64,000 nucleotides of DNA from Sinomicrobium oceani (GTDB lineage Bacteria; Bacteroidota; Bacteroidia; Flavobacteriales; Flavobacteriaceae). Position 1 is the first letter of the stretch. Every line of letters starts with the position of its first letter. Below the pieces are notes generated by a model. It made no database searches. It was not told where the DNA came from and saw nothing but the letters and a program-made list of their open reading frames with translations. The stretch is from NCBI RefSeq assembly GCF_900119185.1, contig NZ_FPJE01000013.1:62001-126000 (forward strand), given 5' to 3'. The position numbers and the translations under genes were made by a program. This document shows, piece after piece, positions 1 through 50,200 of this stretch.

Positions 1-708
1 TTCCCATTCCGCTTCGGTAGGTAACCGTTTACCTGCCCATTTGGCATAAGCCTTTGCGTCGTGCCAGGATATCTGAACTACCGGGTAGTTTTCTTTACCT
101 TCAATCGAACTTTCCGGTCCCTGTGGATGTTTCCAATTTGCACCCCTTTTCCAATCCCACCATTTTGAAGGGTTGTCCAGAGGTACCGGTACCTCTGTTT
201 TTTTGAAAACAAGAGCTGCGGCCAGGAGTAAACTATCTGCTGGTTTAGGTGTTCCTAACGGAAGTTGTTGCTTTATTTCATCCCATGATACATCCCTTTC
301 TGCTGTAGTTATATATCCGGTTGCTTCTACAAATTTTTGAAACTGAGCATTAGTAACTTGTGTTTTATCCATATAAAAGGAAGATATCTTTACCTTATGC
401 ACAGGATATTCGTCTGCTCTTCCTTTATTGTCTCTGGCTCCCATCAAGAAAGTTCCTCCTTCTATGCGAACCATTTCTTTTGACAATTTCCCGAGATCAG
501 GGCTATCATAGACCTCAATACCTTTTTGTTCGGGAAAACCGGAAAACCTATCGGATAGGTTTATGTGACATCCGGTAATCTGCCCAACCTTCTCTGAAAG
601 CCCTGAATCTTCTGTATTTCCTTTATTCGTCTCTTTATACCCAATACTACAGGATTGTATCAGCATTGTAACAAAACACAGCATTAGTACTAATTTTTCT
701 TCCTTCAT
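1..708 (-). CDS. Formylglycine-generating enzyme (SUMF1/FGE)-like lipoprotein, C-terminus beyond window
   Basis: Open reading frame of 236 codons from an ATG at 708 running off the left edge. It begins with a lipoprotein signal (MKEEKLVLMLCFVTMLIQSC, lipobox LIQSC), so it is probably anchored on the periplasmic side of a membrane. The SUMF1 fold is clear: MVRIEGGTFLMGA near residue 90, DEYPVHKVKISSFYMDKTQVTN, and YPVVQISWHDAKAYAKWAG followed by KRLPTEAEWE at the window edge. Enzymes of this family oxidise the Cys or Ser of sulfatase (C/S)xPxR motifs to the catalytic formylglycine. The ATG overlaps the TGA of the upstream sulfatase (ATGA), which implies translational coupling and a maturase role for the two adjacent Cys-type sulfatases. 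The catalytic cysteines lie beyond the window, so a non-catalytic SUMF1 relative cannot be excluded. Confidence 0.85.
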   Translation of the reverse strand, partial: MKEEKLVLMLCFVTMLIQSCSIGYKETNKGNTEDSGLSEKVGQITGCHINLSDRFSGFPEQKGIEVYDSPDLGKLSKEMVRIEGGTFLMGARDNKGRADEYPVHKVKISSFYMDKTQVTNAQFQKFVEATGYITTAERDVSWDEIKQQLPLGTPKPADSLLLAAALVFKKTEVPVPLDNPSKWWDWKRGANWKHPQGPESSIEGKENYPVVQISWHDAKAYAKWAGKRLPTEAEWE

Positions 709-31567: not shown

Positions 31568-34500
31568 TTAAGGCTTTACGACCTTCTTTGTGACTTCGGT
31601 CGTATCTCCCGATATTACCACGAAATAGAATCCCGGGGCGAAACCGGTCAGATCCAGCTCATATCCGGTCGTATTCAGCCGATCCGTCTGCTGAACGAGC
31701 CGACCGTCCTTGCTGTAGACCTTAACAGACCGGATAATCACATCCGAACTGATCGTGCCTTTTCCGAAAGACAGCGGATTCGGGAAGAGTACGGTGTTTT
31801 CTTCCGTCGTCTGCAGCTCCTGCACCTCCGGCAGCATAGAAACCCTGGCAGAAGTATCCGGAAGACTTTCATAAGTACAGATAATCTCCGGATGTTGCGC
31901 GGCAGACAGTGCTTCGGAGGAAACAAAACCGGCATCTGTAGTTTGCCCACCAACGGTCGATACCAGTACCAGCGACAGCAATCCGCCCGACGACAGGCTA
32001 TTCACCGCCGTGGTGATATCCCAATCCGTATACCCCGGGGTCGCCGTACCCGGACGGGTATCCAGTACGGTCGTTCCGGCCGGCTTGTTGTTCCAGGTAA
32101 TACCGCTCTCCGTCCAACTGTTATCCGGGACGAGACTCAGCTGCCATTGCGAACTCTCGGCAGTAGTGTTACCGTAACTGCAATACAAACGGAGCACTGC
32201 ATTACTTACGGGGAGTTGTGCACTGTCCAGATCGAATTGCAGGTACACTTCTCTCGAATATCCCGTACCGTCCTTTTTAAGTATAAGGCTTGTATTTCCC
32301 CCGTAATTGGTATCTGCATAGCTCCCGTCTCTCACAAAAGCATCGCCTACAGCTCCGTAAGTTGCCGTCGCCATATCCATGTACCCGAAGATATCCACCT
32401 CGGTAATACTGTTCCAGTCGTTGGAGGAATTGCCATGCCCGATAATACGCACATACCTTCCGGAAGTATCCGGAAGGTCATAATTTTCCTGTGCAGTCGT
32501 ATTTCCTGCCGATGTTCCGCTATAGATATCCGTCCAGCCGGTGCCATCTGCCGAGACCTCCACATCAAAAGAAGACGATCGCTGGTCTCCGAGATACCAG
32601 CCGACCCCCAGCCCGGTTATGGTGTGTACAGTGCCGAGATCGAAACGTATCCACTGGCCGTCGCCTTCTGCGGACCAACGGGTTCCCAGGTTATCATCGA
32701 TGGTATTCGCGGGAACATTCCCGTCGTCTGCACTGGCCGTAACCTGTATGATGGGCAGCCCGGTAAGGATCTCCCCGGCTTCGGGCGTGTTTTCATCTAT
32801 GACAACGTATGCGGTTGCACCGCTGTGGGGGGCAGCCGGAAGGGGACATTCCAGTTGCCGGGTTCCTGGTATACCCGGTACGTCTGCAAAAAGGGTTACG
32901 GTACTCTGCTGCTGAGCCGGATCGGCTATATACACCTTTACCTCTTCTTCTTCCAATCCCTTCAGCATCACCGTACAGGGACGGTCGACAGTGAGGGAGA
33001 CATCGCCGTCCGAAAGCGTTCCTGCCTGGTAAAAAACGACCTGCATCATATCGGCATCTTCATATTTCACCGCCTGCACTGCCGGTGTGTTCTCCACGAT
33101 ACGGATACGCGAGAGGTCGTACGACTGCATATCTGCCCCGGAAGCCATCCCCGGAACAACGATATAAGCATACGTAGCATCGGAAGGTGCCGTGCCGTGA
33201 TCTACCCACATCTTAAACACATCTCCAGATACCATATCGTCCGGATAGCTATGGTTGATGCCATACCAGCTCCCGCTTTGTTCACGGTTACTGACCCGTA
33301 CGTTCCCACCCTCCGGTATGAAATAGCCGATGCTATCGTGCAGTATCCATTGCGGATCGGTATAAAACACCTCGGTCTGCGAGGTTTGTACCCCGGGGCT
33401 TCCCCCCGTGCCGGAGACCAGGACATCGCCGCTGAGCCAGCACTGATTGATCGTCGTGGTAATATCGGCAGTGCCGGAACCGTTGATTCCCGCTCCGAGA
33501 CACACTACGGCATCATCGAGAAAAAACCAGGCCTTTCTTGCTGTGGTATTCTTAAAGTTCAGATGATAAGCCGTGATGCCATACACACTGTCCGTGACAC
33601 CCCCTGCAAAAGCCGTACTTCCCGCTTCTCCCCAGGTAGCCGTAGGCGGTACCTCGGTATAAGCTGCCGAAGTCGTACCCGGAATCTTATCCCATTCCCA
33701 GACAGGCATAATATTGTAGTACTCTCCGCCTCTGCGCTGAATATTGGTAGCGCCATCCGGCAGAAAAACACCTTTGAGATTTTCCTCATTACCGCTCTCC
33801 GTCCTGATGGTCCGGGATGATACCGTACGGACATTAAAGAGATAGCCCGGTCTTTGATGTACGGTGTAATCGCCCCTGTAAAAATGTTTATGCCAGGGGA
33901 CTACCATATAACCGGGGGCCGCGGCTCCGGATGTTCTGGCAATAGCGGCATTCCAGGCGGCATTATTCGCAGGATCGACTTTTTTAGCCCTCTCCAGACG
34001 GCCTTTTTCGCCACTTTTCCGAAGTATGTTCGGCCGACTTATCCCCCGGCCTTCCGTACTGAAGTCGATATAACTTCCGCGGATAGTGCGCAGATACGTG
34101 TCCTTGTAATACCCGGAGAGCAATTGTTTCTTTTGGGGGGACAACGCATAGGGCGTATCCCGTACCCAGTCGGCTATACGGTATTCCCCGTCGAGAAAGA
34201 CCGAACCGTAACTGGATATCATGAGCTGGGCACCATGCTGCATATAGGAATTATCGTGCTGAAGCCCTTCTCCGGTGGTCAGCACAATCGGGTAAAATGC
34301 TTCATCTATGGCTACCTGCATGATGTCATCATCTTCGAGCAGACAGGCACGGTAGAGGTAATGTATCGCAATATCCAATTTGTTTGCTCCGGTCCAGGAA
34401 GCCGGGTTACCCCGGTTCATCTGTGCTATAAGACCGGCTTCCAACGCAGAAGGAACGGGCGTGCTCCCGGCTCTTAACAAGAGTAATATTTGTCCCAGAC

Positions 34501-34915
34501 CCTGCGGACTCGAAATCTGGTTATACCACCAGTTATCGCTCTGCGGATCGGTGGTATCCCAAAAATCCAGAGCATTGACGATAGCGGTATGCAAAGTACC
34601 GCTTCCGTAATGACTACTCGCCGGAATGGTATAGGCCCTCGCCATATCCTTTAACCGGACAAGATGCACATTCGCGGGCCACATGGTCCGTGCGTCGCTC
34701 TGATAATCGATATCCGTCCAGGAACCATCGGCCTGAACCGTATTCAGGTAGTCGCTGACAGTGGCATCCAGCGAACTCACAGCCCCTGTAAGCAGTAACT
34801 CGCTCCGGATGCGGCCGGAAATACTGTCATAAACCGCTTGTGAAAATGCCTCTTCGTGAATTCCGTACCACAACAAAAATGTAAAGAATACTTTTAGCGT
34901 AATTGTTTTTCTCAT
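31568..34915 (-). CDS. PL8-family polysaccharide lyase (chondroitin AC lyase type) with F5/8C, DNRLRE and T9SS domains
   Basis: 1115 residues. Signal peptide to about residue 26 (EEAFSQ). The alpha/alpha-toroid PL8 domain has the spacing of chondroitin AC lyase catalytic residues: Asn178 (TGANKLD), His227 and Tyr236 (SYMQHGAQLMISSYG), Arg290 (TEGRGISR); also NWWYNQISSP at 128-137. The central beta-sandwich domains run to about residue 690. Then a discoidin/F5-8C carbohydrate-binding domain (about 720-845), a DNRLRE domain (about 850-1010, FVRDGSYADTNYGGN) and a C-terminal T9SS type A sorting domain (LFPNPLSFGKG ... GFYFVVISGDTTEVTKKVVKP). It should be secreted and surface-attached, cleaving uronic-acid glycans such as chondroitin or hyaluronan by beta-elimination. 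Convergent with the GH63-like gene and not within a SusCD operon. Confidence 0.93.
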   Translation of the reverse strand: MRKTITLKVFFTFLLWYGIHEEAFSQAVYDSISGRIRSELLLTGAVSSLDATVSDYLNTVQADGSWTDIDYQSDARTMWPANVHLVRLKDMARAYTIPASSHYGSGTLHTAIVNALDFWDTTDPQSDNWWYNQISSPQGLGQILLLLRAGSTPVPSALEAGLIAQMNRGNPASWTGANKLDIAIHYLYRACLLEDDDIMQVAIDEAFYPIVLTTGEGLQHDNSYMQHGAQLMISSYGSVFLDGEYRIADWVRDTPYALSPQKKQLLSGYYKDTYLRTIRGSYIDFSTEGRGISRPNILRKSGEKGRLERAKKVDPANNAAWNAAIARTSGAAAPGYMVVPWHKHFYRGDYTVHQRPGYLFNVRTVSSRTIRTESGNEENLKGVFLPDGATNIQRRGGEYYNIMPVWEWDKIPGTTSAAYTEVPPTATWGEAGSTAFAGGVTDSVYGITAYHLNFKNTTARKAWFFLDDAVVCLGAGINGSGTADITTTINQCWLSGDVLVSGTGGSPGVQTSQTEVFYTDPQWILHDSIGYFIPEGGNVRVSNREQSGSWYGINHSYPDDMVSGDVFKMWVDHGTAPSDATYAYIVVPGMASGADMQSYDLSRIRIVENTPAVQAVKYEDADMMQVVFYQAGTLSDGDVSLTVDRPCTVMLKGLEEEEVKVYIADPAQQQSTVTLFADVPGIPGTRQLECPLPAAPHSGATAYVVIDENTPEAGEILTGLPIIQVTASADDGNVPANTIDDNLGTRWSAEGDGQWIRFDLGTVHTITGLGVGWYLGDQRSSSFDVEVSADGTGWTDIYSGTSAGNTTAQENYDLPDTSGRYVRIIGHGNSSNDWNSITEVDIFGYMDMATATYGAVGDAFVRDGSYADTNYGGNTSLILKKDGTGYSREVYLQFDLDSAQLPVSNAVLRLYCSYGNTTAESSQWQLSLVPDNSWTESGITWNNKPAGTTVLDTRPGTATPGYTDWDITTAVNSLSSGGLLSLVLVSTVGGQTTDAGFVSSEALSAAQHPEIICTYESLPDTSARVSMLPEVQELQTTEENTVLFPNPLSFGKGTISSDVIIRSVKVYSKDGRLVQQTDRLNTTGYELDLTGFAPGFYFVVISGDTTEVTKKVVKP

Positions 34916-35244: not shown

Positions 35245-35851
35245 ATGCAAAAGACTGCTTATGAACAACGTTTTCTCGTAATACTCATCGCGGCACTGTG
35301 TATAGGAGCTGCTACGGGTATCTATGTATTGCTGTCGGATGATTTCGGGAATATGGAATTGAAGATCACGTTAACCACCCTGGCACTCATCGGGTACAGC
35401 CTGTCCGGGCTCTGCGTTTCCTCCTTATATGAAAAAGAAAGGTACCGCGTTTTTGCACTTGCCGGCATCGCAACAGCGGTAAGCGGCTACCTGCTCAACC
35501 TGTTGGCCGTGTGGGAAACGATCGACATAGACCACACAAGGGAGTACTGATTATGATGGTTTGGCTACCGTCTTTGCTCATATCGCATTGCTCCTGCACC
35601 TGAAACCCGTGAACAATGTTGTGATGTCCCTTCTCTTCATTACTATAGTCTTTATTATCCTCGTAGGTATCATGCTGATTCTTCCCATTACAGATAACTT
35701 CGGACGCATAGACGAATACTACCGGTTCCTCGGTGTTTTCGGGATCCTTGATGTATTGGGCACCATCATCACGCCTGTGGTCAATACAATAGTTGCAAAG
35801 CCGGAAACCAGAAAAACGGACTATCCATCCGGAAAAGACATGGCTTCCTAA
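35245..35851 (+). pseudogene. Six-span membrane protein split by a +1 frameshift
   Basis: The first frame, ATG at 35245 to TGA at 35548-35550 (about 101 residues), has three hydrophobic spans (FLVILIAALCIGAATGIYVLL, ITLTTLALIGYSLSGLCVSS, VFALAGIATAVSGYLLNLLAV). The second frame, open from 35531 to TAA at 35849-35851, continues with DYDGLATVFAHIALLLHL, an NVVMSLLFITIVFIILVGI span and an FLGVFGILDVLGTIIT span. Joined by skipping one base near the TGA they make a single protein of about 200 residues with six spans. Either the gene is broken, the sequence has an indel, or the downstream part starts at TTG 35561. The protein is not recognised beyond being a membrane protein. Its stop overlaps the convergent lipid kinase stop by three bases. 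Confidence 0.65.
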
Positions 35852-36738
35852 ACCGATCCGCTAATCACAGACAGAGCGGCGTGCAGTAATTCTATGGTAA
35901 TAACCCCGGTGGGCAATATTTTGTATTCTCCGTCCATCTGTAAACCGAAAAAGCTGTGATCATTTCGATTCAGCCTCAGTTGCCGGGTCTGATAATTGAC
36001 AACACCTTTCAGGCTTACATGTTTTTTGAACAACATCAATATGCCAAACAATAAAAACCTGATCTTATTCATATTGGGAACTATAAGAACATCGAGAAGA
36101 CCATCCTGTAACGAGGCTCCCGGGGTAAGGCTGAAACTATATCCCATTTCGTTGGAGTTGGATATAAAGATGAGATAAGGGTCCTTGTAATACTTGCCGC
36201 CGTCTACGGAAACTTCGAGAGGACACGCTTTCTCACGGCCGAAAAAAGCCTTGATGCAGGCTTTGGTATAGGCTGTTAATTTACGGCTACCGGCTCCTTC
36301 ATAATTCCGTATGACCTCTGCATCAAAACCCACTCCTGTATTACTGAAAAAATAGGCGCCGTTACAACATCCCACATCGATCCGTGCGGACAGTTGCTTT
36401 TTTATAATGTCCAGGGCCAGGGCCTGGTCGGCCGGGATCCTCAAATGAGAAGCGAGTCCGTTTCCCGACCCCAAGGGGATTATTCCGAGGGGGATATCAG
36501 TATTTACGAGTACCGAAGCCACCTCATTTACTGTTCCGTCTCCACCGCAGGCCACAATAACCGAGGCCCCTTCTTTGAGGGAAGCTATTGCCAGGGCTAT
36601 CGCATGTTTTTTACGTTCCGAATACTTCACCACCACGAGATATGCATCCCCCGGAAAATAGGTATCCAGCAAGGCATTGTCCAGGCCGTTGTTTCCCCGG
36701 CCCGCTATCGGGTTGACTATAAAATGGATGTTTTTCAT
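35848..36738 (-). CDS. Diacylglycerol kinase-family lipid kinase (DagK/YegS-like)
   Basis: 296 residues from ATG at 36738 (MKNIHFIVNPIAGRGNNG); the open frame extends further upstream but inside the preceding gene. Catalytic domain motifs: nucleotide-binding ACGGDGTVNEVASVLVN near residue 60, IPLGSGNGLASHL, and the C-terminal domain with QDGLLDVLIVPN and QMDGEY near the end. The family phosphorylates diacylglycerol, sphingoid bases or related lipids at the inner membrane. The start codon shares one base with the stop of the membrane transferase gene (TAATG), implying translational coupling: a transferase that leaves diacylglycerol behind and a kinase that returns it to phosphatidic acid. Confidence 0.93.
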   Translation of the reverse strand: MKNIHFIVNPIAGRGNNGLDNALLDTYFPGDAYLVVVKYSERKKHAIALAIASLKEGASVIVACGGDGTVNEVASVLVNTDIPLGIIPLGSGNGLASHLRIPADQALALDIIKKQLSARIDVGCCNGAYFFSNTGVGFDAEVIRNYEGAGSRKLTAYTKACIKAFFGREKACPLEVSVDGGKYYKDPYLIFISNSNEMGYSFSLTPGASLQDGLLDVLIVPNMNKIRFLLFGILMLFKKHVSLKGVVNYQTRQLRLNRNDHSFFGLQMDGEYKILPTGVITIELLHAALSVISGSV

Positions 36739-38717
36739 TATTCCTGATTTTTCATATCGAGTTTTCCTCCGGTATAGAGCGACTCGGCAACCTGATAGAA
36801 CGAAATGGTCTCCAGTAGAAAATCCGGGTCCGGCTCCTGTTTCAGCAGGGCATCGGTATGCGGGTCCCACCGATAAAAATTAGCCGTTTTCCGGTCGCCC
36901 AATACCATAATCCGGTCGCCTTTGAGCAATCCCAGTTTTCTGTAATTTCCCACAAAAGCACGCTCCTGTCCCGAAGGTACAGTATGTATATCCTCCCCGA
37001 AAAATGACGAGGTGTACGACCAGTTGAGGTATCCGAACAAGGTCGGGAACAGATCGATCTGCGAACACAAGCCCGACTGTCTGGCGGGCGTACTTCCCGG
37101 AAGGTTGTAAATAAGTGCCGGAATATGATAATTGTCCACATCCAGTTCCCAACGCCCTGCACTGCTTGCACAATGGTCGCTCATAATCACCAGGACCGTA
37201 TGTTCGAACCAGGGTTTCTTCCGGGCCTCTCTGACGAATTCTCCTATGGCATAATCGGTATATTTCACGGCCCCTTCTCTGCCCGTCCCGGAAGGGATAT
37301 CTATTTTTCCTTCGGGATAGGTATAAGGTTTATGGTTGGAAGTCGTCATGATAAAATCGAAAAAAGGCTTTCCCTGTGCCTCCTGTATATCGGCTTGCCG
37401 TATCACTTTCCTGAAAATATCCTCATCACAAACCCCCCAGGCATTTTCGAAAGTTACTTCTTCATCGTTTATATTGGTGCGGTTTGTACGGATGCCGTCC
37501 CCCATCAGAAACCCGCGTCCCCGGTCTACGATATCAAATCCGTTTCCGCTGAAAAAAGCATTCATATTATCGAAATACCCGTCACCTCCATAGAAAAAAT
37601 GCCTGGTATATCCCTGCTGCCTGAAGACCTCTCCTATGGTAAACATATCCGTATGATGTGCCCTCTTTACAATACTCCTTCCGGGTGTCGGCGGGATGGA
37701 GAGCGTTATGGCTTCCATGCCTCTTACGGTTCTCGTTCCCGTGGCGTACAGGTTTGTAAAAAGTATACCCTCGGCTGCGAGTGTATCCAGATTTGGGGTC
37801 AGGTTTTTCCGGTTTCCGAAACTCCCCAGAAACCGGGCACTGAGACTTTCCACGCAAATAAAAATAACATTGGGTTTTAGTGGGGCCTTGGCGCTATCGG
37901 GACGGTTGATATAACGGTAAACCGGGTTACTCCCGGCGTCTGTAATACGGTCCCGGTCTTTATATCGGTTTGCTACTTCTTCAAAAGCCTGTTTTTCGGG
38001 GAGCGTCCGGTAAAATTCCGGGTAAGAGAGTTCGTTGTTACGAAAGGCAGCAAAGAACGAAAAGATACCCGCTTTGGACAACTCGTTATCGTACCTGTTC
38101 GAAGACCATTCGGCATCTTCGTTAGAAACAAATATGCCAAAAAGCAACAGCAATACCAACCATGGCGCCCCGTTCATAGCTCTTTTCCCGAGGGTATCGG
38201 CCGATAAAAACACCTGATGGAAAACAGAAAAGCGATATACCGTAAACAGCGTGGAGGCCATAAGAATGAGCATAGCGCATATCAGTACCGGTATGGGATA
38301 AGATTCGTTAATATTCTTTACCACCTCGTAGGTGTAAATGAGGTAATCTACCGCGATAAAATTAAACCTCCTGTGAAATTCGTCCCAAAAGGTAAATTCG
38401 GCAAAAAAAGAAAAGTAAAGCAGTAATACGCCCAGGCCGAATCCCGTATAGGTCATGATCCGGTCCGGCAGACTTCCCGTCCATTTTGCAGGCATCAGGA
38501 TAAGGTACAACGCGTAGGGTACGGCGAAAAAAGAAACCGTGCCGAGATCAAAAAACAGACCGGTACCGAATATTCTGAACAGATCGATGATCCCGGTATC
38601 GGTCTCCCGGAAGTCCCATATCAGAAGACTACATCGTACGATAAAGGAAAGTAACAGGAAGAATACGACAAAGACACGCAACAGTGCAAAGCGGCCCGTA
38701 AAAAAATAGTGTTTCAT
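36738..38717 (-). CDS. LtaS/MdoB-type sulfatase-fold membrane transferase
   Basis: 659 residues. Five predicted membrane spans in the first 200 residues (about 12-30, 48-75, 90-108, 142-162, 185-200), then a periplasmic alkaline-phosphatase-fold domain from about residue 280: NVIFICVESLSARFLGSFG (metal ligand Glu290), probable nucleophile Thr330 in ATGTRTVRGMEAITLS, and VLVIMSDHCASS near residue 540. Relatives transfer phosphoglycerol or phosphoethanolamine from phospholipids to glycans or lipid A, leaving diacylglycerol. It is not a sulfatase: no CxPxR motif. It is 54 bp downstream of a histidine kinase and overlaps the lipid kinase gene. The acceptor is unknown; a Gram-negative cell makes no lipoteichoic acid, so an osmoregulated glycan, lipopolysaccharide or capsule are candidates. 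Confidence 0.92.
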   Translation of the reverse strand: MKHYFFTGRFALLRVFVVFFLLLSFIVRCSLLIWDFRETDTGIIDLFRIFGTGLFFDLGTVSFFAVPYALYLILMPAKWTGSLPDRIMTYTGFGLGVLLLYFSFFAEFTFWDEFHRRFNFIAVDYLIYTYEVVKNINESYPIPVLICAMLILMASTLFTVYRFSVFHQVFLSADTLGKRAMNGAPWLVLLLLFGIFVSNEDAEWSSNRYDNELSKAGIFSFFAAFRNNELSYPEFYRTLPEKQAFEEVANRYKDRDRITDAGSNPVYRYINRPDSAKAPLKPNVIFICVESLSARFLGSFGNRKNLTPNLDTLAAEGILFTNLYATGTRTVRGMEAITLSIPPTPGRSIVKRAHHTDMFTIGEVFRQQGYTRHFFYGGDGYFDNMNAFFSGNGFDIVDRGRGFLMGDGIRTNRTNINDEEVTFENAWGVCDEDIFRKVIRQADIQEAQGKPFFDFIMTTSNHKPYTYPEGKIDIPSGTGREGAVKYTDYAIGEFVREARKKPWFEHTVLVIMSDHCASSAGRWELDVDNYHIPALIYNLPGSTPARQSGLCSQIDLFPTLFGYLNWSYTSSFFGEDIHTVPSGQERAFVGNYRKLGLLKGDRIMVLGDRKTANFYRWDPHTDALLKQEPDPDFLLETISFYQVAESLYTGGKLDMKNQE

Positions 38718-38771
38718 ACTTTACAAACTCAGAATTCGGTTGTAAAAGTAGAAGAGGAATCTAAAGAAAAA

Positions 38772-40073
38772 TTAAAGTTTTGCCTTCGGGGTTTTCACAC
38801 TTAGGAGTACCGGATCTCCCGGGACCGTGACGGTGAAGACATGCATATTTTTTACAAATGCATATGCAATATCAAATTGATATAGGTCGCATATTTTCTT
38901 TACGATAGCCAGCCCCAGCCCGGTAGACCTGACACTGTTATTCTCCCGGTAAAACCGCTCGAATACCTGATCGGCATGCACTATGGCCCGATCTCCGGGA
39001 TTGATCACCGTTAAAGTTAAAAACGTTGTTTCCACACGAATGTTCCCGGTATCCGAGCAATGTTTGATAGCGTTGGATATAAGGTTATTACACAATATTT
39101 CAGCGAGATGATAATCCATCTTCACCACGAGCGTGTCCCTGCAGACCAGCTCAATCTTATCGTTAGAAAGGCCTTCGAAATCCGCAATTTTATCGCGTAT
39201 CATTTCGGAAAGATCGATCTCTCTTACAAGGTTAAACTGATTATTCTCTATTTTGGTGAGTAAGGTGAGCCCTTTATTCATCTGGGTAACCCGCTTGATG
39301 TCTTTCTGTATGGAGGTGAGTTGTTTATACTGTTCGTCACTTAACGGGGCCGAATTAATGATATTGTCCACCTTCATCTGTATAATGCTCAGCGGGGTCT
39401 GTAATTCGTGCGATACGTCTTCCGTAAATTGCTTCAGGTTGCGGTAATCGTCCCGTACTTTCTCGGTGAGTGTTTTAACCTGTTTGTTGAGCTGACTGAA
39501 TTCGCGTATATCCGGATCTTGCAGTTTCAGCGGTTCTTTATCAATAAGTGAAAAATTCCCGATCTTTTCCAGAGTCTCAAAAAAAGGCCGCCAAAGGTAA
39601 GCGTTCCCTGCCCTGTTCAGGTAAAACAAGAGTATAAATACCAGGGCAATAATCAATACATACGAAAAAATTATAGCTGCCAGTATCTTTTGGGACTCCA
39701 GTACGTAATCCCGTACGGTGATCCGGTAGGTCCTGTTTCCTGCGGTCCTGAAACTCACAAGCTCGCGAAACAGTTCCATTTTGCCCTGGGTATCGTCGTA
39801 AAGCAAGGTATCCCGGAGTATTTTTTGTCCGGTTGCGGCAGCTTCGACTACTTCGATCACCGGAGGCATGGAATAAGGAGCTTCTCCTTGCTGTAGCGAA
39901 GTTTCAATACGGTCGGTAATCGCATATAACTCTTCTTCGATCTCCTGCTGCAATATATGCCGTACGTAAAAGTAAAGCACTACTGTACTGCAACACATCA
40001 GTAAAAAACTGAGCATGACGAAAATTCGCGATGTTTTTTGAAGAAGTCCTGTTTTTTTCCTGGCTTTATCCAT
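38772..40073 (-). CDS. Sensor histidine kinase
   Basis: 433 residues. Two membrane spans (about 14-35 and 135-158) flanking a periplasmic sensor of about 100 residues; then the DHp helix with phospho-acceptor His in EDVSHELQTPLSIIQ near residue 246, N-box NNLISNAIKHC and G2 box RSTGLGLAIVKKICDLY. The usual DxGxG G1 motif is reduced to INPGD, a variant I believe is common in Bacteroidota kinases with LFERFYR-like F-boxes (here VFERFYR). It starts immediately after the response regulator stop (TAGATG) and is followed by the membrane transferase and lipid kinase genes, so it may sense envelope state. Confidence 0.93.
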   Translation of the reverse strand: MDKARKKTGLLQKTSRIFVMLSFLLMCCSTVVLYFYVRHILQQEIEEELYAITDRIETSLQQGEAPYSMPPVIEVVEAAATGQKILRDTLLYDDTQGKMELFRELVSFRTAGNRTYRITVRDYVLESQKILAAIIFSYVLIIALVFILLFYLNRAGNAYLWRPFFETLEKIGNFSLIDKEPLKLQDPDIREFSQLNKQVKTLTEKVRDDYRNLKQFTEDVSHELQTPLSIIQMKVDNIINSAPLSDEQYKQLTSIQKDIKRVTQMNKGLTLLTKIENNQFNLVREIDLSEMIRDKIADFEGLSNDKIELVCRDTLVVKMDYHLAEILCNNLISNAIKHCSDTGNIRVETTFLTLTVINPGDRAIVHADQVFERFYRENNSVRSTGLGLAIVKKICDLYQFDIAYAFVKNMHVFTVTVPGDPVLLSVKTPKAKL

Positions 40074-40751
40074 CTAATCGTCCATAAATTTATATCCGCT
40101 GCCATAAGCCGTCCTGATATATTTTGCCCCGGCCCCGGTCATTTTTTTTCTCAGGTTATTGACGTGTACATAAATGAAATCGAAATTATCGGCCAGGTCA
40201 CTGTTATCCCCCCATAGGTGTTCGGCGATGATTTCTTTGGAAAGCACCCTGTTCTTATTGGTCATAAAAAAGAGCAGCAGGTCATATTCTTTCCTGGTGA
40301 GGATAATTTCTTTTGCCTCCACCCAAACCTGCCTGGCTGCCGTATCTACCGAAATTTCATTAAAATTAAGGACATGTCCACCGTCAAATTTCCGTCGCCG
40401 GAGTACAGCCCTCATCCGGGAATTCAGTTCGGCCAGGTGAAAGGGTTTGGTCAGGTAATCATCGGCACCGAGGTCCAGCCCTTCCAGCTTATCGTCGAGA
40501 GCATTGTTTGCCGAGATGATGACAACCGCTGTACCGTGTTCTCCGCTTGCTTTCAAAGCTTTCAGCACATCGATCCCACTGCCTGTTACCAGATTGATAT
40601 CGAGGACGACAATATCGTATGTGTACAGGGAAAGCCTGTAAGACGCTTCGTCGTAATCTGCTGCAACCTCACATACATACCCTTCTTTACGCAAGTATGC
40701 AGCAACCGACTCCCGAAGCGACAATTCATCTTCTGCTATGAGTACTTTCAT
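40074..40751 (-). CDS. OmpR/PhoB-family response regulator
   Basis: 225 residues. Receiver domain 1-118 with phospho-acceptor Asp51 (IVVLDINL), acidic pocket EDE at 7-9 and Lys102 (YLTKPF). C-terminal winged helix (about 130-225) with ILTRKEYDLLLFFMTNKNRVLSKEIIAEHLWG and FIYVHVNNLRKKM. It is paired with the downstream histidine kinase without any gap. The PAP2 phosphatase gene ends 78 bp upstream on the same strand. Confidence 0.95.
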   Translation of the reverse strand: MKVLIAEDELSLRESVAAYLRKEGYVCEVAADYDEASYRLSLYTYDIVVLDINLVTGSGIDVLKALKASGEHGTAVVIISANNALDDKLEGLDLGADDYLTKPFHLAELNSRMRAVLRRRKFDGGHVLNFNEISVDTAARQVWVEAKEIILTRKEYDLLLFFMTNKNRVLSKEIIAEHLWGDNSDLADNFDFIYVHVNNLRKKMTGAGAKYIRTAYGSGYKFMDD

Positions 40752-40829
40752 ATCACTAAAATTACTATTTCTTTTTGATACAAGGACCGGGACCGCAAAC
40801 CCGGACCGGAAAAACTGCTCCCTGTTGCG

Positions 40830-41627
40830 CTAAAACCGAATGACAATTCCCACTCCGGCTTCCCTGCCATTATAAAAAGGGAAAAAGGTAGAGTCGTACC
40901 TCTTTTCTTCCGCTACCTCCTTACCTGCTTTTTTTTGGAATAACGGATGTATCCAATACGCTATTTTTGTGCTTAGTATGCCTATGCCCGCCCCCGCTAC
41001 AACATCGCTGAACCAGTGTCGGTCATTGTAAATCCGGAAGAAACCGGTACCCGCAGCCACGGCATACCCGGCAATACCATACCATACCGACCTGTACTTA
41101 TACTCCTGCCACAAAAACTCCGCTCCCATAAAGGCCGTCGCCGTATGCCCGGACGGAAACGAATTACGCGTCGTGCCATCGGGTCTCTTAACACGCATTA
41201 CTGTCTTCAGACCAAACACGGAAGCCCCCATAATGGCATAGGCTGTAGCGAGTATTACGGTCCTGTCTTTAAAATCATGCCTTCCGTGAATTCCGGAAAG
41301 ATTGAGTCCGTAAACGGCAAGGGCCGGGGAATACTGGGAAATATCGTCTATGGTAAACTTCTCATCGATATGTTCATTGATCTCTTCCTTGATCCCTCCG
41401 TTGATAGTCATGAGTGTATGACTCTCGGTAGCAACGAGTCCGTAACCTATCATAACCGCCGGGACTACAACTGCCTTATACTTAAATTTTAGTGCTGTGC
41501 TGTCCCTGTCTATAGCCCCGGAAACCGATAAAACATTACCCTGGGCCCGGGTTTGTACATACATCATCCCCATACAGATCGTAAGAAACCAAAGGAAATT
41601 CCCGGTACCGTATTTTAATCCTTTCAT
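40830..41627 (-). CDS. PAP2-superfamily phosphatase (lipid phosphate phosphatase), exported or membrane-anchored
   Basis: 265 residues from ATG at 41627; the open frame starts seven codons earlier, but this Met gives a regular signal sequence (MKGLKYGTGNFLWFLTICMG ending near TRAQG). Three-part PAP2 signature: KTVMRVKRPDG, SFPSGHTATAFMG (catalytic His of C2) and RIYNDRHWFSDVVAG (catalytic His and Asp of C3). Such enzymes remove phosphate from phosphatidic acid, phosphatidylglycerophosphate, undecaprenyl pyrophosphate or lipid A. First gene of the apparent lipid operon with a two-component system, membrane transferase and lipid kinase. Confidence 0.9.
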   Translation of the reverse strand: MKGLKYGTGNFLWFLTICMGMMYVQTRAQGNVLSVSGAIDRDSTALKFKYKAVVVPAVMIGYGLVATESHTLMTINGGIKEEINEHIDEKFTIDDISQYSPALAVYGLNLSGIHGRHDFKDRTVILATAYAIMGASVFGLKTVMRVKRPDGTTRNSFPSGHTATAFMGAEFLWQEYKYRSVWYGIAGYAVAAGTGFFRIYNDRHWFSDVVAGAGIGILSTKIAYWIHPLFQKKAGKEVAEEKRYDSTFFPFYNGREAGVGIVIRF

Positions 41628-41771
41628 ATTTGTTTTTTTCGGTCGCACCCCGCACCACCCGTTTATAAAGATCGCCGTGTAAATGTAACCGTGAATTCTA
41701 AAGAGAATATAAAGCGGGACTTTAGGAAGCAGACTTTTTTATAAATTGGCCCTTAAAAATACACTACCGGA

Positions 41772-42167
41772 GTGCACATCAAAAACATAGATATACAAGG
41801 GCGGCATATACACGACATTCCTTCTTTTTACGAGGAGATAAACCGGGTATTTATGGCCGGGGAAGACTGGAAGATCGGCGAAAGTCTCGATGCGCTCGAT
41901 GACATCCTCTACGGAGGTACGGGGAAGATATCGGGGAACGAACCCGTAAAACTGACCTGGTATGATTTCGACAAAAGCAGGTTGGCGCTGGGTATGGACA
42001 CTACCGTTACCTGGTACAGGGAAAAACTCAGATATCCGGAAAAATTCAACTCCACCCTGATCCGGGAAAGACTCACAGCCCTCGAAAACGGACAGGGTCA
42101 AACCTTTTTCGATATCGTTATGGAAATCATCGCGTTGCATACCAACATCACGCTCCACAAACATTAA
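41772..42167 (+). CDS. Barstar-family (ribonuclease inhibitor-like) protein
   Basis: 131 residues, start at GTG (41772); the frame is open only from 41757 and has no ATG. N-terminal barstar pattern: IKNIDIQGRHIHDIPSFYEEINRVF, then WKIGESLDALDDILYGG, where barstars bind ribonuclease with an acidic helix (LDALDD). It is longer than classical barstar (about 90) at the C-terminus. No barnase-like nuclease is seen in the window, so it is an orphan immunity-type protein or has taken another role. The next gene is a small membrane protein 101 bp away. Confidence 0.72.
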   Translation: MHIKNIDIQGRHIHDIPSFYEEINRVFMAGEDWKIGESLDALDDILYGGTGKISGNEPVKLTWYDFDKSRLALGMDTTVTWYREKLRYPEKFNSTLIRERLTALENGQGQTFFDIVMEIIALHTNITLHKH

Positions 42168-42544: not shown

Positions 42545-42662
42545 ACCTCGCCTGTGCTATAGAAAAAGATCTTCCGTCTTTACCATATTCCGCCCCCGTG
42601 TTTTTGTGTATATTTACAGGGTGTGCCTCCGGGCAGTATATAACACTGTTAAACCCGATCTC

Positions 42663-45347
42663 ATGAATCTCCGTAGGAATATCCTCTTTTTTCTTTTTGT
42701 ACCGGTATTACTGTCCTGTAACCATAAGGAGCCTGCCCGCCCGGTGAACCTTCGTACCGAACATCTCAGTACTCCCCTGGGTATAGACAATCCGAACCCG
42801 CGTTTTACCTGGCAAATAGCACAGGGAGCGCGTTCCGTATTACAGGAATCCTATACTATTTATGTAGGTACAGACTCGGCCGATGTAGCCCGGCGTAAGG
42901 GAAATTACTGGAAAACCTCAAGTCGGGACGGGGTATGCCATACGGTGTATGACGGCAAGCCCCTGCAACCTTTTACCAAATATTACTGGGGAGTGGAAAT
43001 CACCGATAATCACGGTGTCCCCGGAGTGTTATCCGTGTCCGGTTTTGAAACGGGAATGATGGACACTTCCGGCTGGAAAGGACAGTGGATCACGGATACC
43101 ACGGATATTTCGCTCAAACCGGCTCCTTATTTCCGCAAAGCATACAGGCTGCCCAAAAAAGTAAAAAAAGCACGCGCCTATATCGCAGCCGGAGGGCTTT
43201 ATGAATTGTACATCAACGGCCAAAAAACAGGTGATCACCTGCTCGACCCGGTCTATACCAGGTTCGACAAGAGAAACCTATATGTCACTTACGATGTTAC
43301 GTCCTCGTTCCGGGATGAAGATATAGTCATCGGTGTCTTACTCGGAAACGGATGGTACAATCACCAGTCTACTGCCGTATGGGATTTTGACAAGGCCGGT
43401 TGGCGGGCCAGACCGAGGTTTTGCCTGAATATCCGTCTGACCTATGAGGACGGCAGTACGGAGACCCTCACTACCGATACTTCCTGGAAAACATCACTCA
43501 GCCCTGTAGTATTTAATAGTATTTATACCGCAGAACACTACGATGCCCGTAAAGAACAACCCGGCTGGGACCGCCCCGGATTTGACGATGCTTCTTGGGA
43601 TGCGGCCATAGCCGTAGCCGCGCCGTCAGACAAGATCACGGCACAGGCTCTTCCCCCGGTAAGAAATATTTTGGAAATAACCCCGGTACGTATGGATAAG
43701 CGGGACGATAAAACCTATATTTTCGACCTGGGCCGGAATATTTCAGGGATTACCAGGGTCAGGGTACGGGGAGAGAAAGGCACACGGGTATGGGTAACCC
43801 ATGCGGAGCAACTGGACAGCACGGGCCATATCGACCTGTCCAATATCGATGTCCACTACAGGCCCAAAGATACTCTCGACCCTTTTCAGACCGATATCTA
43901 TACACTCCGTGGTAACGGAGAGGAGGTTTTTACGCCGCGTTTCAATTACAAAGGCTTTCAATATGTAGCGGTAAAGAGCGACCATCCCATAGTACTGGAA
44001 CCGGGCAGCCTTACAGGTATTTTTATGCATACCGATGTGGCCCCCGCAGGAGAGATCAGAACTTCCGATACCCTCGTTCGCAAAATATGGGAAGCCACCA
44101 ATGCCTCTTACCTCTCCAATCTCTTCGGTTATCCTACCGATTGTCCGCAACGCGAAAAAAACGGCTGGACCGGTGATGCCCATATCAATATACAGACCGG
44201 CCTTTATAACTTCGATGCCATAACCGTCTATGAAAAGTGGATGGCAGATCATCGCGATGAACAACAACCCGACGGGGTGCTCCCCGCTATCATCCCCACC
44301 TGGGGCGGATGGGGTTACGACTGGGGTAACGGCCCCGACTGGACCAGTACCATAGCTATTATCCCCTGGGAACTCTATCGTTTTTACGGTGATGACCATA
44401 TCTTGCGCGACATGTACGAACCGATAAAAAAATACGTAGACCATATCACTGCGATCAGCGATAAGAACGGCCTGACAGACTGGGGACTCGGAGACTGGGT
44501 GCCTGTAAAATCCGTAACCCCCAAAGAACTGACTTCCTCGATCTACTACTACATCGATGCGCACATTCTTGCCATGGCGGCCAAACATTTTAAAAACGAT
44601 AGAGACCACCAGAAATATTCTGCGCTCGCCGAGCGTATTAAAAATGCGATTAACGACAAATATCTCGACCCCGAAACGGGTATCTACGGAAGTGGTTATC
44701 AGACCGAACTCAGTGCCCCGCTGTACTGGGGTGTCGTACCCGATGCACTACGGCAGAAGGTAGCAGACAGGCTGGCGGAAGCGGTGCACCGGGCTGACGA
44801 TCATATCGATGTGGGGCTGCTCGGAACCCGTACCATACTCGGAGCCCTCAGCCAGAACGGTTATGCCGATCTGGCCTTTACGGTAGCCACACAGGAGACA
44901 TTCCCTTCCTGGGGATGGTGGATAAGAAACGGGGCTACTACCCTCTATGAAAACTGGGATATCCACGCGGCTTCGGACCTTTCCCGGAACCATATCATGT
45001 TCGGGGCCATCAGCGGCTGGTTTTATACCGGACTGGGTGGGATTTTCCCGGATGAGGAAGAACCGGGGTTCCGGAATATCATACTGTCACCCCATTTCGT
45101 AAAAGACCTTCCGGACTTCGAAGCCCGGCATGAAAGTCCTTACGGAACCATTATTTCCTCGTGGAAAAGAGAAGGAAATACGATACGATATACCTGTAGT
45201 ATTCCTAATGGAAGTACGGCCCGGGTAACACTGAACGGCCGAAAGGTAACCCTTGACGGAAACAGGATCGCCCCCGATCCAAATTCGGAGTCGTCATGCT
45301 CTATGTCCCTAAGGCCCGGTACGTATACGTTCGTTATAAAAGAATAG
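42663..45347 (+). CDS. GH78 alpha-L-rhamnosidase lipoprotein
   Basis: 894 residues from ATG at 42663; an in-frame ATG at 42606 would add 19 residues that spoil the lipoprotein signal (FFLFVPVLLSC, Cys about residue 18). Domain order: rhamnosidase N-terminal domain (about 25-130, LGIDNPNPRFTWQI), jelly-roll domain with QWITD and FRKAYRLP (about 145-330), concanavalin-like region, (alpha/alpha)6 catalytic domain from about 470 with TDCPQREKNGWTGDAHI, which holds the general acid region, and GWGYDWGNGPDW, and a C-terminal beta domain. It releases alpha-L-rhamnose from plant or algal glycans (pectin, ulvan) or glycosides, probably at the periplasmic face. Not part of a SusCD operon here. Ends 24 bp from the convergent DUF486 gene. 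Confidence 0.93.
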   Translation: MNLRRNILFFLFVPVLLSCNHKEPARPVNLRTEHLSTPLGIDNPNPRFTWQIAQGARSVLQESYTIYVGTDSADVARRKGNYWKTSSRDGVCHTVYDGKPLQPFTKYYWGVEITDNHGVPGVLSVSGFETGMMDTSGWKGQWITDTTDISLKPAPYFRKAYRLPKKVKKARAYIAAGGLYELYINGQKTGDHLLDPVYTRFDKRNLYVTYDVTSSFRDEDIVIGVLLGNGWYNHQSTAVWDFDKAGWRARPRFCLNIRLTYEDGSTETLTTDTSWKTSLSPVVFNSIYTAEHYDARKEQPGWDRPGFDDASWDAAIAVAAPSDKITAQALPPVRNILEITPVRMDKRDDKTYIFDLGRNISGITRVRVRGEKGTRVWVTHAEQLDSTGHIDLSNIDVHYRPKDTLDPFQTDIYTLRGNGEEVFTPRFNYKGFQYVAVKSDHPIVLEPGSLTGIFMHTDVAPAGEIRTSDTLVRKIWEATNASYLSNLFGYPTDCPQREKNGWTGDAHINIQTGLYNFDAITVYEKWMADHRDEQQPDGVLPAIIPTWGGWGYDWGNGPDWTSTIAIIPWELYRFYGDDHILRDMYEPIKKYVDHITAISDKNGLTDWGLGDWVPVKSVTPKELTSSIYYYIDAHILAMAAKHFKNDRDHQKYSALAERIKNAINDKYLDPETGIYGSGYQTELSAPLYWGVVPDALRQKVADRLAEAVHRADDHIDVGLLGTRTILGALSQNGYADLAFTVATQETFPSWGWWIRNGATTLYENWDIHAASDLSRNHIMFGAISGWFYTGLGGIFPDEEEPGFRNIILSPHFVKDLPDFEARHESPYGTIISSWKREGNTIRYTCSIPNGSTARVTLNGRKVTLDGNRIAPDPNSESSCSMSLRPGTYTFVIKE

Positions 45348-46028: not shown

Positions 46029-47174
46029 TTATTCTTCTTCGCTGTTCATCGCTTTCATCAGCAATGTATACGCATTTTTTACCACGAGCTTCGAAGTGAG
46101 TGATAACCGTTCCGAACGGATCTCCCGCAGACCGTTATGTTCTATACCGGTTTCTACAGGGATCATTTCATACTGGTCGTTACCCTTTGACTCAAAGACA
46201 TAACTTTTTCCCTGCCAGTTAACCACTCCCTCCACGGATAACACCATGGCTTTCTTATTATCGATACTGATCTCGGCATTCAGGAATAGTCCCGGAAGCA
46301 AGGCATCATCATAGTTCTCGGGTTTACAGATCACCTCGGCTGCCCGGTCGTTGTCCAGACTCTGATTGAGGTACAGGACCTTAGCCGCATATTTCTTATC
46401 GGGACTACTGTTGGAGAACACTTCGACTTGCTGTCCGGCTTTTATAAACGGTACATCTTTTTCGAAAGCATTAAGCGAAAAAACGACATCCTTCATATCG
46501 ATCACTTCAAACAGCATTTCCGTGGAAGACACATATTTCCCTACATTGACATTGACCTTGGACACCAGTCCCGTCACCGGAGACCGTATCGGCAGGGAAC
46601 TAATGATCCCACCGGCGGTCAGCCTTCCGGGGTTTATACCGAGCAGTTCGAGTTTTCGCCCCAGTGAGGCCATGGATATCCTTTGTGTTTCCCGTTCTGT
46701 ACTTACCTGCTCAAAAAGCTTGTCACTACTCGCCTTCTTGGCATTGAGTTCTTTCTGTCTTGTATATGCTTTATCGGCCAGGTAAAACTGCTCTTTTGCG
46801 GTCAGGTAATCCTGTTGTAACTGGATATACTGCATGTCCTCTATAACCGCAAGTACGTGCCCTTTTTGCACCTGCATTCCTGACATGACATTCGTTTTTC
46901 TGATGTAGCCTCCGAGTGGTACGGTAACATTCACCTTACTCTGGGGAGGGACAACCACCGTACCGTGCAGGTCTACAATGCCACTGACCTCCTTCTCTTC
47001 GGGAGTATCAACCTCTATACCGGCATTTCCGGCCTGCTCCGGGGTGAGTTCCAATATTCCCTCGGCAACAGGTGAGCGTTCGGGTGCTTTCGCTGTCTTG
47101 TTCTTTTCACTGCACGAGACCATAACCGATATGGCCACTGCTAAAATTGCTATGTATTTTTTCATCTGTTCCAT
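46029..47174 (-). CDS. CusB/CzcB-type RND efflux periplasmic adaptor, lipoprotein
   Basis: About 381 residues from ATG at 47174 (MEQMKKY; a Met three codons later is also possible; the longer frame from 47240 adds residues unlike a signal). Lipoprotein signal AVAISVMVSC. Adaptor features: biotinyl-lipoyl-like hairpin with VTVPLGGYIRKTNVMSGMQVQKGHVLAVIED, a helical hairpin (about 125-185), IRSPVTGLVSKVNVNVGKYV and a beta-barrel part (DVVFSLNAFEKDVPFIKAGQQVEVF). It joins the inner-membrane pump to the outer-membrane channel and may pass metal ions to the pump. It follows the pump gene by 66 bp on the same strand. Confidence 0.93.
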   Translation of the reverse strand: MEQMKKYIAILAVAISVMVSCSEKNKTAKAPERSPVAEGILELTPEQAGNAGIEVDTPEEKEVSGIVDLHGTVVVPPQSKVNVTVPLGGYIRKTNVMSGMQVQKGHVLAVIEDMQYIQLQQDYLTAKEQFYLADKAYTRQKELNAKKASSDKLFEQVSTERETQRISMASLGRKLELLGINPGRLTAGGIISSLPIRSPVTGLVSKVNVNVGKYVSSTEMLFEVIDMKDVVFSLNAFEKDVPFIKAGQQVEVFSNSSPDKKYAAKVLYLNQSLDNDRAAEVICKPENYDDALLPGLFLNAEISIDNKKAMVLSVEGVVNWQGKSYVFESKGNDQYEMIPVETGIEHNGLREIRSERLSLTSKLVVKNAYTLLMKAMNSEEE

Positions 47175-47240
47175 TTTTTTACCTGCAGAAAAATCTGCGA
47201 AAAATTGAGGTCTCTCCAAAGACTTTATACGTATGCGCAA

Positions 47241-50200
47241 TTACAAATTATTCCAGGTTAATACGGCAATTACAGCCTTGTTATAATTATTTACGGTATC
47301 CAGGTACTCGTTCTTTATGGTAATTGCCTGGTTTACCACAAGTACCCAGCGCAGGTAATCGATATCGCCGTTCTCGAGCTGACTGTTAGCTGCATCTATA
47401 ATAGTCTGGGCGTTGGCAAGCCCTTCGCTTTCGTAATAATCAAGGCTTTCTTCATATTTCTGTAATTCTTTGTAGGCATTGGATACTTGTGCGGAAATCT
47501 CGGCTTCCGTAGCACGGGCACTGGCTGCATAGTGTTCCCATTCGGCCCGTGCCGCTTTGTTTTTGGCCGTCTGGCTCCCAAAGAAAAGCGGAATACTCAG
47601 ACCGGCAGTAACATAGCCGAAACGGTCACTGCTGTTAAAGAAGACTTCTTCACCGGCTTTATTGGTCTGTGCCCCCATAATACTGATATTGTTATACCCT
47701 AAGGTAATATCCGGAAGCATACGTGCCCTTTCCGTCTTCCAGTTCCATTTTGCCGCTTCTGCCCTGCTCTGCGATAACCGTACTGCCGGGAGGTTCGCTG
47801 CATCGTGTTGTTCCGGCAGACTGCCTGTATCTATCTTTAAAGCTGCAGATGCCGGAATGTGCTCTACACTGTCCTGCAATACGGTATTAAAAGATTTACG
47901 GGTTATTTCAATATCCCGGGCCACCATATTGAGCTGGTTGGTATAATACTGGCGTGCAGATCGCGAAGCACTTTTTTCGATGATATTGGTTTCTCCGACC
48001 TCAAACCGAAGCTCCGACTTGTCCTCCATCAGGTGATAAATACTATCGGCATAATGCAACAGTCGGCGCTTCTCTTCGAGCCATAACAATTCGTAAAATA
48101 ATGTACGTACATCGGCCCTGACCTGCTGATCGGTAAGTCTGGCCTGGGCCCTGGCTACTTCGTATTCGCCCTGCAACGCCTTTTTCTTTCGGGTATACAC
48201 CGTCGGAAAGCTGAAGGTCTGGCTTACACCGAAACGGGTATCGTTGTAGACACTGTTGAATTTACCGTAGTCCATATCTATTTCGGTTTTCGCAATATCA
48301 AAAGCGGATTTGCCGAGCATAGCCCTGGAAGTCTCGTAATAGGTCGCTGCCTTTACACGATGGTTATTCTTCATAGCTACTTCTATAGATTGCGACAGGG
48401 ACAATACAGGTGCTTCCTGGGCATATAAACTCCCCGAACCGGAAAGCAGACCGATGAGCAGTACAGCAAACCCTTTTCCTTTTTGCTTCTTCATTTTCAT
48501 GAACTTACCGGTATGATATGTCATCAGATAGATTGCCGGCAATACGAAAAGTGTCAGCAGCGTAGCTGTAATAAGTCCGCCTATGACCACCGTAGCCAGG
48601 GGACGTTGTACTTCGGCCCCTGCCCCGTTACTGAGCGCCATGGGCAAAAACCCGAGTGAAGCCACCGCAGCGGTCATCAATACCGGGCGCAGTCTGTTTC
48701 GCGTACCCTGCATGATGATGTCCATCGGTGAGGTGACCTCTCCCTTTTTACGGATACGGTTGAATTCGGAAATCAGAACGATCCCGTTGAGTACCGCAAC
48801 CCCGAAGAGCGCGATAAACCCTACCCCTGCGGATATACTAAAAGGCATACCCCGCGAGGCCAGAGCAAATACCCCGCCTATGGCAGACAACGGAATGGCC
48901 GTGAAAATGATAATTCCTTCCTTGAGCGATTTAAAGGCAAAGTACAACAGGATAAAGATGAGCAATAAGGCTACCGGAACAGCTATGGAAAGCCTGCTCT
49001 TGGCCTGTTGCAGGTTTTCGAATGCTCCGCCGTAAGTGATGTAATATCCGGGATCGAGTTTCATCTGTTCTTTTACTTTTTGTTCGAGTTCGTTCACTAT
49101 ACTCTGCACATCCCTTCCGCGGACATTAAAACCGACAATAATACGACGTTTGGCATTTTCCCGCTGTATCTGGTTCGGCCCTTCCACTTCTTCTACGGAT
49201 GCTACCTGATAAAGCGGAATATGTGCCCCGGTGGGTGTAGAGATCAGCAACCGGCGGACATCATCTATACTCTTACGCCTTTTGTTCTCTACCCGAACCA
49301 CAAGGTCAAACCGCTTTTCGCCTTCGTAGATATTACCGGCCACGGCTCCTGCAAAAGCAGCGTTCACCGTCTGGTTTATATCCTGTACATACAAACCGTA
49401 CTTCGCCATTTCAGCCCAGTTGTAGTCGATGATGATCTGTGGCATCCCGGTCACTTTTTCCACATACAGATCGGCTGTACCGCCTACCGTCCGGCTGATA
49501 TTTCCGAGTTGTTCTGCATATTCGGCAAGTTTGTCCAGGTCTTCTCCATAGATCTTACACACCACGTCCTGCTTAGCCCCGGTCATCAACTCATTAAACC
49601 GCATCTGCACCGGGAACTGGAAGCCCGTAGTTACCCCCGGAGCTACTTCCTGTACCGTCTTTGACATCTTTTCTGCCAGTTCCGGGAAAGAAGAGGCACT
49701 GGTCCATTCGGACTTATCCTTTAACACGATGATCATATCCCCACCCTCTATCGGCATCGGATCGGTCGGGATTTCGGCACTCCCGATCCGGGAAACGACC
49801 TGCTCGACCTCCGGATATTTTTTGCGGAGTTCTGCCGAAATTTTCTGTATAGTCTCGGTAGTAGTTGTGAGGTTTGTTCCGAGAAGCAAACGGGTCTCCA
49901 CGGCAAAATCCCCTTCTTCCAGCTGCGGAATAAACTCGCCTCCCATGTTGCTGAATATAAAAACGGCAATTGCAAATAAAGCCAGGGCAACGACCAAAAC
50001 CGCTTTCCGTACTTTTAATGCTCTTTTCAGCCACTTTTCATAGAAAGACTCCAATACGGCCATAGCCTTATCTGAAAAGTTAGGTTTATAACTTATTTTT
50101 TTACTGATAAACAGGGAACTGACCATGGGTATATATGTCAGCGACAGGATAAAGGCCCCTAAAATTGCAAAGGCCACCGTTTGCGCCATAGGCTTGAACA

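Follow-up and report, generated by a model that had tools for sequence, protein, structure and literature searches.

Several described gene sets join a head-group transferase of the envelope to lipid-processing and regulatory partners. The linkage of mcr to pap2 and to dgkA, and of eptA to pmrAB, is established (PMC10285318, PMC7559476), and the ColRS/RaxRH systems place eptA and lpxE under metal-responsive control (PMC8306577). In Capnocytophaga canimorsus, the genes for LpxE and EptA share an operon, and the two enzymes each raise resistance to polymyxin; the operon is described as two genes, without a two-component system or a diacylglycerol (DAG) kinase, and its transferase was recognized from its resemblance to classical EptA (PMC4730577). 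For the related fold of LtaS, the active-site residues, including Trp354 and Arg356, have been listed (PMC7576196). Proteins annotated as “LTA synthase family” are also found in many Gram-negatives without lipoteichoic acid.

We analyzed a 64,000-nucleotide stretch of the Sinomicrobium oceani genome (hereafter, the window; the source genome comprises 5.02 Mb in 57 contigs and is 99.98% complete). Five genes on its minus strand encode, from 5' to 3', a PAP2-family phosphatase (40830..41627; 265 aa with an N-terminal signal-like segment; PF01569, 58.5 bits), an OmpR/PhoB-type response regulator (40074..40751; 225 aa; Pfam Response_reg and Trans_reg_C), a sensor histidine kinase (38772..40073; 433 aa, two transmembrane segments; Pfam HisKA and HATPase_c), an LtaS-fold membrane transferase that we assign to the subfamily of VP1736 (36738..38717; 659 aa; Pfam Sulfatase, 151 bits), and a YegS/DagK-type lipid (diacylglycerol) kinase (35848..36738; 296 aa; DAGK_cat PF00781, 89.1 bits). 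The gaps are 78 bp between PAP2 and regulator, 0 between regulator and sensor kinase, and 54 bp between sensor kinase and transferase, and the transferase stop codon TAA (36740-36738) overlaps the kinase ATG (36738-36736) as TAATG. An earlier note on this DNA had reported the five reading frames, the gaps, and the overlap; all were exact when the coordinates were rechecked, and Pfam agrees with the class of all five genes. An Rfam scan of the window returned no RNA element. Divergent from the PAP2 gene lies a gene for a Barstar-like immunity protein (41772-42167, plus strand), with no barnase-like partner noticed.

In composition, the set resembles the EptA/MCR modules that carry pap2, dgkA, and PmrAB- or ColRS-type systems, as each combines an alkaline-phosphatase-superfamily transferase, a PAP2 enzyme, a DAG kinase, an OmpR-type regulator, and a sensor. 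It also recalls the C. canimorsus operon, which comes from the same family and holds a PAP2 phosphatase and a head-group transferase in one unit (PMC4730577). Unlike the EptA/MCR modules, however, the window set has a transferase of the VP1736 subfamily without the EptA_B_N domain, a soluble YegS/DagK-type DAG kinase in place of the membrane enzyme DgkA, and a distinct operator, an 11-bp CTTTA direct repeat. EptA_B_N (PF08019) had no match in the transferase or in the whole genome and was present in 4 of 99 relatives. Because this defining domain is missing, we place the set outside the EptA/MCR family, although it would work alike.

The label LtaS/MdoB-type, given to the transferase in the earlier note, holds for the fold and gives way to VP1736 at the level of the subfamily. 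In a profile search, VP1736 of Vibrio parahaemolyticus (PDB 3LXQ) scored 308 bits, versus 66 for LtaP and 46 for LtaS. Comparison of an AlphaFold model (pLDDT 82.3) with solved structures gave a Z of 47.8 for 3LXQ over 402 residues at 34% identity, compared with 31-34 for LtaP/LtaS and around 30 for YejM. VP1736, which shares the GTR[ST]VRG and FDNM motifs, is thus the closest solved structure; it is itself uncharacterized and therefore gives no function for the window protein. Helices 8-34, 43-74, 83-116, 142-162, and 176-196 of the model precede an alpha/beta domain, giving a membrane domain of five N-terminal helices and a C-terminal periplasmic catalytic domain, as in head-group transferases. 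The predicted nucleophile T330, the metal site E290/D514/H515, and H462 are invariant in 44/44 homologues, and the catalytic threonine, Glu, Asp, and His align with those of LtaS and 3LXQ. Fold, Thr nucleophile, metal ligands, and the order of membrane and catalytic domains are all shared with LtaS/LtaP and OpgB. In contrast to LtaS, the positions of Trp354 and Arg356 are taken by Asp383 and Met385 (the profile alignment sets FDNM opposite FWNR), which are likewise invariant in 44/44 homologues, and the host genome has no recognizable phosphatidylglycerol (PG) synthase. The best NCBIfam matches are OpgB-type models, at 62-70 bits against cut-offs of 572-574, well below an OpgB assignment. On sequence grounds, then, we assign the transferase to the VP1736 subfamily, as neither an EptA nor an LtaS. 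Our literature search, which covered open sources, returned no demonstrated substrate for any VP1736-subfamily member, no paper on the VP1736 lineage, and none in which a protein resembling LTA synthase is tied to PAP2 and a DAG kinase.

The earlier note had proposed examining the gene order in relatives, and the genes do travel together in Flavobacteriaceae, the family to which the closest named relatives belong when ranked on the transferase (Galbibacter pacificus leads, at 67%). We compared 80 loci from named relatives, of which 78 could be scored for the kinase and 66 for the sensor-regulator pair; the genomes are related, and the counts should not be read as independent events. The lipid kinase lies directly 3' of the transferase in 59/78 loci and is absent from that position in 19/78, and it is the most constant partner of the transferase. 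The sensor-regulator pair lies upstream in 24/66 loci, and these 24 also carry the kinase (23), a TonB-dependent-receptor gene (21), and PAP2 (20). The commonest order in relatives is regulator, sensor kinase, receptor, (PepSY-like gene), transferase, lipid kinase, PAP2; the window is without the receptor gene and has PAP2 upstream of the regulator. Three Flavobacterium loci share this upstream placement of PAP2, regulator, and sensor kinase and retain the receptor. Other families of the order have the transferase-kinase pair too, at ~25-34% identity. Such recurrence of the same genes across other Flavobacteriaceae indicates an arrangement beyond chance. The distribution is patchy, with a transferase ortholog (at least about 48% identity) in 8/99 relatives and none in the five other species of the same genus. 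Together with the loci that have no adjacent kinase and the many without the sensor-regulator pair, this absence from congeners points to an accessory function.

Comparing upstream regions by eye, we spotted a tandem repeat, CTTTA-N6-CTTTAGAWT, of the kind that the earlier note had suggested seeking upstream of the PAP2 gene. A scan in which the tandem repeat was the sole criterion gave 36 copies across 1.53 Mb of sequence from relatives, every one on the transferase strand and mostly just 5' of receptor, transferase, PAP2, or PepSY-like genes. The window itself has two copies, one 5' of PAP2 (41714) and one 5' of the transferase (38777), and third-order Markov simulated sequence never contained the repeat. 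At a constant distance, the 38 sites share a TANNTTT element that the selection had not used (T 38/38, A 36/38, then T 35/38 and T 38/38) and that we take to be the known -7 element of Bacteroidota promoters. The putative operator thus consists of a pair of CTTTA repeats spaced 11 bp apart, with a constant distance to the -7 element, and by this match the repeat occupies the position from which an OmpR-type activator would be expected to contact polymerase.

The full pattern used for genome scans, CTTTA-N6-CTTTAGAWT-N7-TANNTTT, has exactly two perfect matches in the 5.02-Mb genome, both at the module. The first predicted promoter/operator lies 5' of PAP2 (41681..41714, minus strand; CTTTATATTCT-CTTTAGAATTC-ACGGT-TACATTT) and the second 5' of the transferase (38744..38777, minus strand; CTTTAATTTTT-CTTTAGATTC-CTCTTC-TACTTTT), its first bases overlapping the sensor-kinase stop codon. 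When three mismatches were allowed, the matches in the genome equaled those of a reversed control. In a search of 397 genomes of the family, 37 matches in 24 genomes were obtained with the real pattern and 1 with the reversed control. Of 29 family loci examined, 19 have the site 5' of a gene for a transferase, a PAP2 enzyme, a receptor, or a PepSY-like or TolC-like protein (the TolC-like identity is backed by Pfam OEP for two). Operator-like sites are also kept 5' of gyrB in two genomes of one genus, apart from the module; we took these, and matches 5' of other unrelated genes, as chance or unrelated sites.

The single five-gene operon that had been proposed is not borne out, since a second operator precedes the transferase. 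Because the same operator stands before PAP2 and before the transferase, the cluster reads as at least two transcription units under common control, that is, a PAP2-regulator-sensor kinase unit and a transferase-lipid kinase unit, rather than one plain operon. The linkage of operator and regulator makes it highly likely that the adjacent regulator recognizes this site, and we are nearly certain, from gene order and predicted operators, that the five genes form a conserved, co-regulated module.

The identity of the donor lipid can be approached through the lipids that the genome is equipped to make. It encodes a single CDP-alcohol phosphatidyltransferase, which is PssA-like at 96.6 bits (narrowly missing the pssA cut-off of 107 bits) versus 30.9 for pgsA, and one phosphatidylserine decarboxylase; no PG synthase (PgsA) is recognizable in the genome. 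The pgsA search likewise gave only a partial, PssA-type match in five genomes that host an ortholog of the transferase. With one PssA-like enzyme and a decarboxylase, the genome would make phosphatidylethanolamine (PE) and, by known routes, not PG. The absence of a PG synthase makes PE the probable donor and phosphoethanolamine the parsimonious cargo. Phosphoglycerol transfer was considered and is unlikely, as no PgsA was found. SAM-dependent methyltransferase genes adjoin LTA-synthase-family genes on two plasmids, and PmtA lies near on a third; N-methylated head groups as cargo are speculative.

The lipid kinase adds PF19279 (52.9 bits) and a GGDGT motif to its DAGK_cat match, as in the YegS/DagK type. 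In other bacteria, DgkA, which is non-homologous to this type, partners the same transferase family, and this supports DAG release. We consider it very likely, from the intact catalytic residues and the partner genes, that the transferase carries out a DAG-releasing head-group transfer. The idea put forward in the earlier note, of a regulated unit dedicated to head-group transfer in which DAG is recycled, gains support from the co-occurrence of the genes, the constancy of the lipid kinase, and the common operator.

No acceptor is visible in the window, where no gene is itself LPS-specific, and our reading of it draws on relatives of the transferase on annotated plasmids. The Pseudomonas aeruginosa plasmid CP137941 carries a transferase with 44% identity and, directly after it, a PAP2 gene that NCBIfam matches best, though below the cut-off, to a lipid A phosphatase. 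Divergent from it lie genes for a two-component pair, a methyltransferase, an InaA-type LPS kinase, DgkA, and a second LTA-synthase-family gene. Methylophaga thalassica carries EptA, PAP2, DgkA, and an LTA-synthase-family gene on one strand; since it has both enzymes in one neighborhood, EptA and the LtaS-like protein may each use an acceptor of their own. In Pseudoalteromonas a DgkA-transferase pair adjoins EptA, and in Methylophaga pinxianii such a pair adjoins heavy-metal efflux genes. The Pasteurella and Cetobacterium relatives of the transferase have no adjacent DAG kinase or PAP2, which shows that the linkage does not extend to all of the wider family. A Bacteroides finegoldii LtaS-like gene followed by a PAP2 gene beside leuB was examined as a possible LpxF locus and set aside, the PAP2 best matching undecaprenyl-diphosphatase models and not LpxF. 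On two Pseudomonas plasmids, CP137941 among them, the 44%-identical transferase and PAP2 adjoin Tn3-family transposon genes, which suggests mobilization of the pair. By analogy with these relatives, we favor LPS or lipid A as the acceptor, with some confidence.

The role of the PAP2 enzyme is closely tied to this question. Its KX6RP, PSGH, and RX5HX3D motifs are all intact, as in the PAP2 superfamily, and its best NCBIfam match is LpxE, at 28.3 bits against a cut-off of 177, far too low for an LpxE assignment. It had been suggested that the enzyme resets phosphatidic acid; the evidence does not favor this, since it would undo the work of the lipid kinase in a futile cycle and the best match, however far below cut-off, is to a lipid A phosphatase. 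A role as lipid A phosphatase fits the LpxE-EptA precedent in the same family, and we adopt action on lipid A as a working assignment at roughly even odds. The enzyme may alternatively have an undecaprenyl-diphosphate role.

Transfer to an envelope glycan other than LPS (capsule, periplasmic glucan, or glycoprotein), as by OpgB, GacH, and BcsG, comes next after LPS. The fold is common to LtaS, the phosphoglycerol transferase GacH, and the cellulose phosphoethanolamine transferase BcsG, OpgB-type models are the best NCBIfam matches of the transferase, and polysaccharide-degradation genes flank the locus. However, those flanking genes lie outside the conserved module, the OpgB models score far below cut-offs near 570, and the relatives of the transferase sit with LPS enzymes, so that we regard a glycan acceptor as unlikely and LPS as likelier than the new envelope glycan that had been envisaged. 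The polysaccharide-degradation genes of the window (31568-34915, minus strand; 42606-45347, plus strand; 705-2429, minus strand) encode a chondroitinase-AC-like PL8 lyase with F5/8, CBM96, and T9SS sorting domains, an alpha-L-rhamnosidase, and a sulfatase.

Were the acceptor a lipid, for instance ceramide or another glycolipid, the products would be a phosphoethanolamine lipid and DAG, and a DAG kinase would be needed here too. Some Bacteroidota do make phosphoethanolamine ceramides. No sphingolipid gene was seen in the conserved neighborhoods, however, and the proteobacterial parallels point to LPS, which makes a lipid acceptor improbable. It is more doubtful still that the LtaS-fold protein is a phosphatase or a regulator that senses LPS without transfer, in the manner of YejM/PbgA. 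YejM/PbgA has phosphatase activity (PMC7576196) and is among the closest full-length folds, but the nucleophile and metal ligands of a transferase are intact in all 44 homologues and the frequent partnership with a DAG kinase implies DAG release.

The sensor kinase passes the PorY-family model NF052314 (406.3 bits, cut-off 350), which could be read as control of type IX secretion; this reading is very improbable, and we rejected it, because two further PorY-family kinases in the genome are above the cut-off and one scores higher (492.6 bits), the adjacent OmpR/PhoB regulator carries a Trans_reg_C DNA-binding domain and is not PorX-like, and kinases next to the transferase in Pseudomonas and Marinobacter, to which type IX secretion does not extend, likewise match this kinase family best.

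We return, then, to head-group transfer to LPS under a dedicated two-component system. The best NCBIfam match of the regulator is PmrA, below its cut-off, and the neighboring OmpR-type system, by linkage and common operator, has the transferase and the phosphatase under its predicted control, as in PmrAB and ColRS systems. An ExxE-type motif, of the kind discussed for PmrB/ColS (PMC8306577), follows the first membrane segment of the window sensor and of most orthologous sensors. Genes for RND/TolC efflux lie near or inside the regulon of relatives. About 4.4 kb from the module, the window encodes a CusB-like adaptor and a heavy-metal RND pump of the CusA/CzcA type with a fused TolC-like domain (together 46029-51620, minus strand); the CusA-type pump gene spans 47241-51620 (1459 aa, 1167 bits), and the pair is without the operator. 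The ExxE motif, the efflux genes in relatives, and this CusA-type neighbor hint at a metal or cationic-peptide signal, for which we would put the chance at slightly under even.

Taken together, the locus is best read, with reasonable though limited confidence and with the acceptor taken from relatives, as a two-component regulon for phosphoethanolamine decoration of LPS (lipid A or inner core) with DAG recycling. In the proposed mechanism, the sensor kinase would detect envelope or metal stress and phosphorylate the regulator, which would bind the 11-bp direct repeat just 5' of the -7 element and activate both the PAP2-regulator-sensor kinase unit, by autoregulation, and the transferase-kinase unit. 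Thr330 of the transferase would attack periplasmic PE, releasing diacylglycerol, and the enzyme would then transfer phosphoethanolamine to LPS, at a phosphate or at the hydroxyl of a sugar. PAP2 would trim a phosphate, most likely on lipid A, opening a site or cutting negative charge. In the cytoplasm, the lipid kinase would convert diacylglycerol to phosphatidic acid, which would re-enter PE synthesis via CDP-DAG and PssA/Psd. As a net result, the surface would be less negatively charged and the cell would resist cationic peptides or metals, with membrane lipid conserved.

More tentatively, the VP1736 subfamily may be a third head-group transferase lineage beside LtaS/OpgB and EptA/MCR, one that has spread over Bacteroidota and Proteobacteria, also on plasmids, with exchangeable DAG kinase and PAP2 partners, and that decorates an LPS site or another envelope acceptor beyond the reach of EptA; we consider this possible, at about one chance in three. 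For the LTA-synthase-family proteins of Gram-negatives, the locus yields a testable prediction, in which PE is the donor, LPS the acceptor, DAG is recycled by the partner kinase, and the regulator has a defined operator. If true, a second transferase lineage would stand among the envelope-charge defenses relevant to polymyxin and metal tolerance, and surveys built on EptA/MCR models would miss transferases of the VP1736 type.
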